A program made the position numbers and the translations under genes. A stretch of 64,000 nt of DNA from Pseudobdellovibrionaceae bacterium (GTDB lineage Bacteria; Bdellovibrionota; Bdellovibrionia; Bdellovibrionales; UBA1609), in NCBI GenBank assembly GCA_018663505.1, contig JABJQG010000053.1:1-64000 (forward strand), written 5' to 3'. Under the pieces are notes generated by a model. The model did no database searches, had not been told where the DNA came from, and saw nothing but the letters and a program-made list of their open reading frames with translations. Below, in pieces: positions 7,212 through 59,583 of this stretch. Position 1 is the first letter of the stretch; the number at the start of each line of letters is the position of its first letter.

Positions 7212-8039
7212 TCAAACAATATCACCATGTTTGAATATTTTAAATCCAGCCCAAGAAAGTAACCAACCTAATGACAATGGGTAAAGTAATGAAAATAGTA
7301 AAAATCCATTTCTCCCAATAGCATCTACAATAACATACGCCGCAGGACCAATGGCAGCACCTTCGGTATCGAAAAGCAATATTGCAGCCGTTCTAAATAC
7401 CTGTAGAGGGTTCAATAAGGATATACCAATTATTAATGATTCTGAGATACGGTGCTGTAGCATAATACCAATCAAGATAATATCTAAGAAAATTAGCAAA
7501 ATTAACCATATAGAAAATGCTAAACCCAATGCCCACTCTTGTTTTTTAACAGAACTTGAAATCAACATTCCAAAACCTAAAAAACACCAAGTCAAAGTGC
7601 CAAGTAAAACTGAGTAATAGAGAACCTCCATCCAAATCACATCTAAGCTTTTGATAAAACCCCATGCACTAGCTGCAAGCAAAGCAACAATCACTGGCAA
7701 AAAAACTACAAAAAATTTACCAGCAAGCTTTCCCCAAAAATAAGACGCCAAGGATATGGGCATAGACAAAAAATATTCCACAACATTATTTTCTTTATCC
7801 GCAACCACAGCTCGCACTGTTGAAATCAAAATAAATAAGGGCAATACTGCTACACATAACTGTATATAAGTAATCAACAAACGGCTAAGACCGGTGAATC
7901 CCAACACTCTGGATTCTGTAATACCAAGAGAAAATAACAAAATAATAGCTCCGCCAAACACAAGGCTATAAAGCAAAAACCATTTTGCTCTAAAGGATTC
8001 CCTAACCTCAGCCATACTCACTAACATTAATGTTTTCAT
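7212..8039 (-). CDS. nosY: NosY, ABC-type permease of the NosDFY copper-site maturation system
   Basis: The 275-residue product has six hydrophobic segments and the ABC-2 permease pattern (RAVVADKENNVVEYFLSMPISLASYFWGKLAGK near residues 70-105, a cytoplasmic coupling region). In known systems NosY forms a membrane complex with NosF and NosD that is needed to assemble the sulfur-containing CuZ site of N2O reductase. Its ATG overlaps the nosF stop by four bases (ATGA), a tight coupling. It is the last gene of the nosZ arm. Identification rests on context plus permease features. Confidence 0.88.
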   Translation of the reverse strand: MKTLMLVSMAEVRESFRAKWFLLYSLVFGGAIILLFSLGITESRVLGFTGLSRLLITYIQLCVAVLPLFILISTVRAVVADKENNVVEYFLSMPISLASYFWGKLAGKFFVVFLPVIVALLAASAWGFIKSLDVIWMEVLYYSVLLGTLTWCFLGFGMLISSSVKKQEWALGLAFSIWLILLIFLDIILIGIMLQHRISESLIIGISLLNPLQVFRTAAILLFDTEGAAIGPAAYVIVDAIGRNGFLLFSLLYPLSLGWLLSWAGFKIFKHGDIV

Positions 8040-8785
8040 TTTTGTACCTCAGGTTGGATTGGTGTTGTCATGCCAACGTTTTCCACAGTGGATTGATTGA
8101 AATCATCCACGTCAAAACGCTTGTCACTAATAATTTTCCCACAGTCCATCTCTATCACGCGGTTCACCAAACCTTTTATCTCATCAATTCTATGAGAACT
8201 TAACAACATTACACTTTCTTTGGGCATCCCCTGAAGTTGCTGAAACAATATTTTTCGACCATGAGGATCTAAGTTGGCAGAGGGCTCATCCATAATTAAT
8301 AAGTCCGTTTTTTTTCCTAAGGCCAAAGCTATTAGTAATTTCTGTTTCATCCCACCTGATAAATTATGAAATGGTTTCTTTTCCTCAGGCTCTAAATCTA
8401 ACTGTAAATCCTTAGCCACTTTATATATATTTTCAGCGGAGGAGTCTTTATAAAGAGCCGCTGAAAACTCAACAAGTTCTTTCACCGTCATAGTCAAAGG
8501 CGGTGGCAATTGAGGCACAAAACCCACTCGACCTAATATCTTCACACGATCCGCACGAGGCTTCATACCAAAGATATCTATGGATCCATCATATTTATAA
8601 TGACCTAACATACAGCGTATCAAAGTGGTCTTACCGGCACCATTACCACCAATCAAAGCAATTCGATCTCCCGAATAAATTTCTAATTCACCAATTTGTA
8701 AAACAACCTGCTTTACAAACTGCTTCTTTACCCCAGATAGTTGCGCCACCTTTGTGGGGACAAACTCATTAACAGATGCATGCAT
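8036..8785 (-). CDS. nosF: NosF, ABC ATPase of the NosDFY system
   Basis: The 249-residue ABC ATPase has a Walker A GGNGAGKTT (near residue 47), a Q-loop GFVPQLPPPLTM, the signature LSGGMKQKL, Walker B LLIMDEPSANLDP and the switch His SSHR. It would power NosDFY in maturation of the NosZ copper-sulfur site. The start has AAGGA seven bases upstream. A 203-base gap separates it from nosD, unlike the tight spacing elsewhere in this arm, and this gap is filled by a long inverted repeat. Confidence 0.9.
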   Translation of the reverse strand: MHASVNEFVPTKVAQLSGVKKQFVKQVVLQIGELEIYSGDRIALIGGNGAGKTTLIRCMLGHYKYDGSIDIFGMKPRADRVKILGRVGFVPQLPPPLTMTVKELVEFSAALYKDSSAENIYKVAKDLQLDLEPEEKKPFHNLSGGMKQKLLIALALGKKTDLLIMDEPSANLDPHGRKILFQQLQGMPKESVMLLSSHRIDEIKGLVNRVIEMDCGKIISDKRFDVDDFNQSTVENVGMTTPIQPEVQK

Positions 8786-8810
8786 AAGACATTCCTTTAT
8801 TCACAATATT

Positions 8811-8961
8811 ACCAATTTCATTAAATAACTCTCTCTTTGAACTTGAAGCTTTAGCGCCAAAAGCGAGTTCGGATCGCAGCCCAAAGGGCGAGAACCGCAT
8901 GTCTGAGCCTTTTGGTGCTAAAGCTTCAAGTTCAAAGAGAGAGTTATTTAATGAAATTGGT
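8811..8961. repeat. 53-bp near-perfect inverted repeat (long hairpin) between nosD and nosF
   Basis: The left arm 8811-8863 (ACCAATTTCATTAAATAACT...CCAAAAG) is the reverse complement of the right arm 8909-8961 with a single mismatch, around a 45-base spacer that itself contains CCCAAAGGG. It occupies almost the entire nosD-nosF gap. Open frames run through it on both strands and read GAKASSSKRELFNEIG from either side, simply because of the symmetry. It resembles an inserted palindromic or MITE-like element; no target duplication is obvious. Confidence 0.95.
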
Positions 8962-8988
8962 CGAAGCTCGCTACGGAACCCAACTAAA

Positions 8989-10329
8989 CTAACGAACATT
9001 AGACACCCCATCCTCTTCTTCAACATAGTCTTCATCATCTTCCTCCACATCAAAAGTAAGATCAGAAATATCAAAAAACATATTTTTCTTAGATAATAAA
9101 ACATCAGAGTCTAAGGAAAACACCGGCTTCCTATCATGCAGCAACAAACGTGGCTGAGAAAAAGGAGCCAATCTTGCTAAAAAATTAATAACACTTAGTA
9201 CCGGGGATGCATAAAAAAACTTCACCCAAGGGTCATTTAGCCAAAGCTGGTCTTGATATAGATAGTCCGAGTATTTACCATCACCATAACCATCCAAATT
9301 ACGATCAAATCCTTCATAGTGGCTCCAATAATTGCCCTTCCAAACATTACCCTCGGCATTACCATTCGAGTGAACAACCACATCTTCAAGGTTATCAATC
9401 ACAGCATTCCCTTGAAATACATTTCGACTTAAAGAACTATGAAATACAAAACCTTTTTGATTATAACCCACAGTATTTCCCATAATTAAATTATATGTGG
9501 TGGGTTTATACGGAGACTGGTCTATGTAAATACCTGTGGAACAGTAGATGATCTTATTATTATAGATCTTCATATTATCCACCTCTTTCATACCAATACC
9601 CATACCTGTATTGCCCTGAGAAAATAGAATTTCATTATTTTCAATAGTGGTACTTTGACTATACATTAAAAAAATACCCACAGCACTGTGACTGTATTTG
9701 TTCCTGCGTACCTGCATGCGGCCCGTATACATAAAGTGCAAAGAATAACGATTATTCTTACCCACATTATCTTCAATAATATTATCATAGGAATACCAAA
9801 TCACCATATCCCGAGAATTATGAATTTTATTAAAGCGAAATGTATTATTATTACTGGCCCAACCTCGTATTCCGTCCCCACGCAAGCCTAGATCCACTTT
9901 CTTAGATTGAATATCATTATGAGTGACCAAATTATGATGGGCTTCTTTTAAGTCTATGCCAAACAAAGTATCGTAAATAATATTATGAGTAATTTTATTA
10001 TGTGATGAAGTTAAACGAATTGCCGAATTAATATCATCATGGCTATGACCAGAATTTATTATAATTAAACCGGTTATTGTAACACCATCGGCATTTACAG
10101 TAAGTACAGTGCCTTTATTTTGACCATCAAGAGTTACTTTGCCTTGGCCGTCCAAAATTACGGTTTTATTTATTTCGAAATGTCCATAATAGGTTGTACC
10201 TGCAACAACAGGTACTTTCTCTCCAACAGGGGTAGCATCAATGAGTTCCTGCAGTGGAGATGCTTGGGAAAAAACAGGGGCAATTAAAACAAGAAATTGA
10301 ACTATAAATTTAATTGCCCTGTGGCTCAT
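8989..10329 (-). CDS. nosD: NosD, periplasmic parallel beta-helix protein for NosZ maturation
   Basis: The 446-residue product has a signal peptide (FIVQFLVLIAPVFSQA) followed by repeated right-handed beta-helix rungs with Asn/His ladders (HNKITHNIIYDTLFGI, HNLVTHNDI, NNTFRFNKIHNSRDM, NNEILFSQGNTGMGIGM), the CASH/NosD pattern. NosD is the periplasmic partner of NosF/NosY. The last 20 residues are strikingly acidic (EEDDEDYVEEEDG), not a standard part of the fold. The start has AAGGT about eight bases upstream. It follows the NosB-like gene by 21 bases. Confidence 0.93.
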   Translation of the reverse strand: MSHRAIKFIVQFLVLIAPVFSQASPLQELIDATPVGEKVPVVAGTTYYGHFEINKTVILDGQGKVTLDGQNKGTVLTVNADGVTITGLIIINSGHSHDDINSAIRLTSSHNKITHNIIYDTLFGIDLKEAHHNLVTHNDIQSKKVDLGLRGDGIRGWASNNNTFRFNKIHNSRDMVIWYSYDNIIEDNVGKNNRYSLHFMYTGRMQVRRNKYSHSAVGIFLMYSQSTTIENNEILFSQGNTGMGIGMKEVDNMKIYNNKIIYCSTGIYIDQSPYKPTTYNLIMGNTVGYNQKGFVFHSSLSRNVFQGNAVIDNLEDVVVHSNGNAEGNVWKGNYWSHYEGFDRNLDGYGDGKYSDYLYQDQLWLNDPWVKFFYASPVLSVINFLARLAPFSQPRLLLHDRKPVFSLDSDVLLSKKNMFFDISDLTFDVEEDDEDYVEEEDGVSNVR

Positions 10330-58947: not shown

Positions 58948-59583
58948 ATGGCTAGAAAAAAGATGATTATCACCCATGAATACCCCTACCACATTGTGGC
59001 TCGCTCAAATAATAAAGAGTGGTTCTACCTCCCCATTAATGACTGTTGGGAAATCTTTTCGTTTTTACTTATAAAAATTAATCTTAAATTTAAATTCCAA
59101 ATCCACTCTTTTATTTTAATGAATAACCACTATCATCTTATTGGTACGGCTTCCGAACATTTCCCCTTGCCACAAGTTATGGAGTGGTTTCAAAGGTCAG
59201 CAAACCGGATAATTAATGATAAAGCTAAACGAGTGAACCACCTTTTTGGAGGCCCGTACCGAGCAACTCTAATCAATGGAGAAGCTCAATTTTATCAAGT
59301 GACCAAGTACCTTTATCGGAATCCTATTTCTGCTAAACTTACGTCCAAAGTTGAAGACTATCCCTATACAACTATCGTACCCACCAATATCCCCCTATCT
59401 TCACCCTCAACAGGAATTGCGGCATTTTTACCAAAAAACTATGATCAATTATTAATATATTTGAATGAAAGCTATACATGCCAAGAGAAGGAGATCCTTG
59501 ATGCTGCCATAAAAAAATCTATTTTTAAGGTTTCCTCTCGAATATCAAATGAGCTAAAAGATAAACTGATTTTTTGCATGTAG
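58948..59583 (+). mobile_element. REP-associated tyrosine transposase (RAYT, Y1/HUH)
   Basis: The 211-residue product is an IS200-like Y1 transposase of the RAYT branch. It has the HUH metal motif HSFILMNNHYHLIG and a likely catalytic Tyr in TKYLYRNPIS (near residue 120). The N-terminal YPYHIVARSNNKEWF pattern is typical. RAYTs move or maintain REP hairpins, and this one is bounded by inverted hairpins; its stop codon TAG overlaps the right hairpin. It is a probably domesticated single gene rather than an insertion sequence. Confidence 0.88.

Follow-up and report, generated by a model that had tools for sequence, protein, structure and literature searches.

The window analysed here is a stretch of 64,000 nt of contig JABJQG010000053.1 (GCA_018663505.1) from a Pseudobdellovibrionaceae bacterium, and all coordinates are window positions. 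The gap between the nosD and nosF genes is occupied by an inverted repeat (8811-8863 / 8909-8961) whose 53-nt arms are 98% complementary, with one mismatch, around a 45-nt loop. The first-pass annotation, made from the window alone, had described a near-perfect repeat that fills this gap with arms far beyond chance, and our repeat search bears this out: from the base composition of the window, the expectation for such a repeat is ~1e-21. The repeat region folds as RNA at -94 to -99.5 kcal/mol (z ~ -16 relative to shuffles). The readthrough mentioned in the same annotation corresponds to a 111-aa ORF (8769-9104, minus strand) that passes through the element. The nosD transcript would include the minus strand of the element, and on physical grounds the hairpin could plausibly lower nosF/nosY expression or act as an RNase site. 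We do not consider the element to be an intrinsic terminator, as inspection of the window sequence revealed no T-run beside it.

The description of the repeat as 53 + 45 + 53 masks its real anatomy, which is a 73-bp conserved core with a 39-bp, copy-specific perfect arm on each side (Table 1). The core takes in 14 bp of each of the 53-bp repeat arms, and its inner stem holds inherited G.T wobbles and a bulge.

Table 1. Coordinates of the palindromic element, its neighbouring genes and a transposase-domain gene in the window.
Feature	Position	Strand	Remarks
Whole palindromic element	8811..8961	+	151 bp; orientation set by conserved core
Left outer arm	8811..8849	+	39 bp; private to window copy; perfect complement of 8923-8961
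Conserved core, subfamily 1	8850..8922	+	Inner stem, conserved internal loop (GAGTT / ATGTCTGA), apical hairpin GCCC-AAA-GGGC
Core inner stem, 5' strand	8850..8863	+	TTTAGCGCCAAAAG, 14 nt
Core inner stem, 3' strand	8909..8922	+	CTTTTGGTGCTAAA; bears the single G.T mismatch
Right outer arm	8923..8961	+	39 bp; private to window copy
nosD	8989..10329	-	PF05048; ends 27 bp before element
nosF	8036..8785	-	ABC ATPase (ABC_tran); begins 25 bp after element
Y1_Tnp (IS200-like) domain protein	58948-59583		211 aa; one of several in genome; no flanking core

An initial search of the host genome returned dozens of copies, which on alignment all had a core of ~73 bp and differing flanks. Using a covariance model built from the aligned cores, 44 intact copies were identified. 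An assembly artefact such as a chimeric fold-back read can be rejected, since 44 differently flanked copies share one core and relatives are present in several independent assemblies. Three subfamilies of cores can be distinguished, between which the apical hairpin shows compensatory changes (e.g. CGG/CCG to CAG/CTG and TC/GA to GC/GC). As the subfamilies differ in length by 2 bp, the frame of a hypothetical peptide-coding core (MRFSPFGLRSELA...) is not kept between them, and we reject this possibility. Four own-genome loci (L025, L026, L028 and L030) are nested, with one core within the loop of another and pairing in the inner as well as the outer arms; in L030 the outer core has diverged strongly but the outer arms still match at ~98%. 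The arm-pair and position counts given below for this genome are from its 35 simple copies.

Comparison with related genomes revealed two congeneric sites that are filled in one genome and empty in another. G048 carries a copy at the lspA stop codon before lgt, where G047, G019 and G046 have a short gap without the element, and G047 carries a copy directly after a stop codon at a site where the gap in G048 is ~20-30 bp and empty. In the genome under study, one copy resides within hypF and is open in frame, while relatives have only ~4-10 residues at that point. At the level of sequence comparison, the two filled/empty sites and the hypF copy indicate insertion of the entire palindrome in one piece. 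No target-site duplication was obvious by eye at the filled/empty sites, around which the genomes are only ~78-80% identical. No occupied orthologous site common to two close species was found, so no arm pair could be followed directly. The only other family member with a nosD match, a distant one (NosD 28% identity), has a nosD-nosF gap of 25 bp that contains no palindrome. The first-pass annotation had suggested searching for further copies in the host and for absence from related nos loci; the 44 host copies, the palindrome-free gap of this one relative and the congeneric empty sites support the palindromic or MITE-like insertion it had envisaged. Its interpretation as a whole is partly supported.

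Copies are often located 0-60 bp past a stop codon. Simple ORF calls around the 35 copies gave 19 -E-, 6 +E+, 7 convergent and 2 divergent settings, and 1 copy inside a gene. The excess of -E- over +E+ settings (p=0.015), in the former of which the transcript would carry the minus strand, is part of a position bias that may reflect insertion tolerance or an orientation preference.

The main point of our analysis, which could not be seen from the window, is that each copy has arms of its own. In this genome the outer arms are 25-58 bp long, unlike between copies and near-perfect complements within a copy. Watson-Crick pairs account for 98.6% of the 1503 arm pairs in the 35 simple copies; the 21 exceptions comprise 7 wobbles (G.T or T.G), 4 A.C or C.A pairs and 10 others, and the difference between 7 wobbles and 4 A.C types is not significant. 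The core stem, in contrast, keeps G.T pairs at 11%, and the scarcity of wobbles in the arms favours copying at the DNA level over step-by-step compensation in RNA. When all arms were joined by N spacers into one query, a search with limited sensitivity for short arms, the only genomic matches returned were the arms themselves.

Within subfamily 1, between-copy identity is 92% for the cores and 40% for the arms (30% when shuffled, z=22.7). Core identity and arm identity correlate (r=0.70, with 0 of 5000 permutations as high), from which we conclude that the arms are inherited and not copied from the target. The pair L001/L002 has cores that are 98.6% identical and arms that are 69% identical; on the basis of these values the arms change many times faster than the core, and in concert. 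Alignment A1 has a covariation score of 0.733, compared to 0.159 for shuffles. At single pairs UA, AU, CG and GC are all common and freely interchanged, mirrored changes of every kind are observed, and in A1 pairs swap by transversion about as frequently as by transition. Identity at the outer arm ends of own-genome copies is at background level, leaving no conserved terminal inverted repeats. Between-copy similarity drops to background more than 20 bp out along the arms, a drop that is partly caused by the ungapped comparison itself.

Relatives of the element were found in 19 of 47 genomes of the same family (Bdellovibrionales), with up to 43 matches per genome, and named matches to the core pattern were from a Bdellovibrionales MAG. 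The part that is constant across relatives reads AAAA-NN-GAGTTCG-[hairpin]-CGCATGTYTGA-NN-TTTT; the apical hairpin and the arms are genome-specific. In G044, G013, G054 and G055 the arms of different copies are still alike and carry mirrored differences, and G044, G013 and G055 each have an arm consensus common to their copies. Single-arm and mirrored variants are about equal in G055 (48 versus 41), although slips in the alignment may have raised the single-arm counts there and in G013. Nearly all changes are mirrored in our own genome, whose copies have diverged further. Taking divergence as a proxy for age, this difference fits an order in which an arm mutates before the change is mirrored. 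Correction is not uniform, as 25 of 28 G055 copies retain a G.G mismatch adjacent to the core. None of five element loci from three genomes matched Rfam at gathering score, and the window copy gave weak chance matches only. A phage or plasmid origin was rejected, as the core pattern had no match in IMG/VR and none in phage or plasmid collections.

Several relatives are accompanied by further structures. At L149-L168 in G044 an additional outer inverted repeat (GTTTGAATTTTGCGGTTTT) lies outside the inner palindrome; the larger form has outer repeats GTTTGA..GCGGTTTT, as if the inner palindrome were riding inside a larger MITE. The arms of L185, L187 and L188 in G018 extend up to 119 bp and contigs stop exactly where an arm does, which is probably an effect of the assembler breaking on long palindromes. 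The flanks of L190 and L200 in G048 contain other long near-perfect palindromes with different cores beside the elements. A ~590 bp segment beside L133 (G013) and L226 (G054) is inverted between these congeners, which suggests recombination between palindromes. Two loci from different genera, L039 (G000:C48:55793-55905) and L155 (G044:C173:5920-6048), share an orientation and a gene setting: each has a monothiol glutaredoxin gene region on one side and, on the other, an HNH gene, beyond which is a topoisomerase VI B-like gene; this common setting is either chance or a very old shared site.

Considering these data together, we think it probable that the palindrome is a dispersed, mobile, non-coding (MITE/RPE-like) element of Bdellovibrionales, inserted in its entirety and in most cases directly past stop codons, whose arms are re-copied at the DNA level. 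Its many copies carry a structured conserved core at the tip of a long stem, unit insertion is seen at two congeneric sites, and the arms have common ancestry and diverge far faster than the core yet are still complementary. We propose that when replication meets the hairpin, the nascent strand may fold back on the conserved tip stem, so that the distal portion of one arm is the template for its partner, a form of template switching or quasipalindrome correction. Mutations in an arm would thereby be mirrored and complementarity restored. Synthesis primed in this way at the tip stem would copy distal arm sequence but leave the tip untouched, which matches the wobbles and bulge of the core and the G.G mismatch in G055. 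Replication template switching creates and maintains perfect hairpins (PMC8794818), and it has been proposed for nematomorph mitochondrial palindromes (PMC6649704). The weakest step in this scheme is the core, which may be conserved as the recognition site of a putative mobiliser or host factor. Two points count against re-copied arms in a mobile palindrome: a conserved core beside near-saturated arms needs an extra assumption, either selection at many copies, faster arm mutation or core-to-core gene conversion, and no mobiliser emerged from the candidates examined (Y1, RVT_1).

Fast arm divergence with a conserved core would also be expected if the arms were made anew at each transposition, with one arm and the core serving as the mobile template, the 3' end of the core folding back to prime the second arm, and error-prone copying under selection on the core only. 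This would explain why perfect arms start only beyond the core, in whose stem G.T wobbles and a bulge are retained. However, no candidate polymerase follows the element consistently: RVT_1 was undetected in G048 and G007, which have 18 and 13 copies, respectively, and occurs in element-free genomes. Furthermore, arms in our genome (G000) are more diverged than those of G055 and yet have fewer mismatches (1.4% versus ~7%), the opposite of post-birth decay if divergence reflects age, and we consider this explanation unlikely. A reverse transcriptase partner was rejected more generally, as RVT_1 in 11 of 19 carriers versus 8 of 28 non-carriers is too weak an association and the domain is missing from near-complete carriers. 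Selection for pairing of the long stem through compensatory substitutions, as in a functional structured RNA or mRNA 3' element, is improbable in our assessment: the arms have very few wobbles and no significant excess of G.T over A.C, transversional and transitional pair swaps have similar frequencies, locations and core variants differ from genome to genome, hypF itself contains a copy, and given copies are absent from closely related species. In favour of such an RNA are the conserved internal loop, the compensatory apical hairpin changes and the tendency of copies to lie past stop codons such that the transcript contains the minus strand (19 -E- versus 6 +E+).

The overlap of arm ends with gene ends in L015, L016 and L024 raises the question of whether the arms are inverted duplications of the target flank, made when the core inserts and the flank is copied back. 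The background similarity of distal arms beyond 20 bp fits as well, with the ungapped comparison as a contributing cause. However, the arms of subfamily 1 have a consensus in common (z=22.7) and diverge in step with the core, arm consensuses are present in G044, G013 and G055, and the filled/empty sites leave no space for a native arm. For whole arms this origin is largely refuted, and we hold it to be very improbable; arm ends may still extend into the flank. Least credible, in our judgement, is a REP-type element mobilised by an IS200/Y1 (RAYT) transposase. The element is extragenic, has many copies and a hairpin that would be recognised at its tip, and the genome has 10 Y1_Tnp matches, with one gene in the window. 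However, no core was found beside the Y1 genes examined, and Y1_Tnp was undetected in six element-rich carriers of 14-34 copies (G043, G015, G054, G055, G013 and G001).

Among known systems, Rickettsia palindromic elements (RPEs) are similar in being palindromes of ~150 bp with tens of dispersed copies, sometimes in frame in genes (PMC10969869), and a palindromic repeat of ~100-150 bp in many copies is also what we observe. RPEs, however, frequently insert in frame in genes and encode a conserved peptide, whereas only 1 of the 35 analysed copies is in a gene and the core frame is broken between subfamilies. RPEs are also reported to lose arm identity with age (PMC6649704), unlike the Bdellovibrionales arms, which remain perfect even as those of different copies diverge from one another. 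MITEs (Correia, ERIC and similar) are likewise short, non-autonomous, intergenic palindromic insertions that can nest in each other, but their defining feature is a conserved set of terminal inverted repeats that match an IS, whereas in our genome the termini are the least conserved part of the element and the centre is conserved. REP/BIME/REPIN sequences with RAYT are extragenic hairpins in many copies; REP stems are mostly 6-9 bp with a terminal GTAG/CGTC tag (PMC3733652), and the Bdellovibrionales element has no such end tag and no RAYT association was found, either as hairpins flanking a Y1 gene or as Y1 in the six carriers. The coding palindromes of nematomorph mitochondria also keep long near-perfect arms despite sequence change, for which conversion or template switching has been proposed (PMC6649704), but they do not form a dispersed family with a common core. 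The element works like a MITE/RPE-type dispersed palindrome but lacks the terminal repeats of MITEs, the insertion habit and peptide of RPEs and an association with RAYT. The most fitting name is a new family of palindromic elements in Bdellovibrionales whose arms evolve in concert. We found no earlier description of this family in the open-access literature, the coverage of which was incomplete.

Covariation that keeps a long hairpin perfect is usually taken as a sign of selection on RNA structure. We suggest, tentatively, that the conserved tip is a self-priming hairpin through which every round of replication or transposition rewrites one arm from its partner, such that the arms are the fast-evolving, self-correcting part of a selfish element and not a sequence-specific end. 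If true, this would be a mode of element structure not described for the REP, MITE or RPE families. The copies form a natural series across related genomes of varying divergence, with a common tip and different arms, that allows mutational arm-to-arm copying to be told apart from selection, and each genome provides dozens of marked palindromes for measuring template switching. They represent a previously unlisted repeat family, without an Rfam match, in relatives of predatory bacteria.
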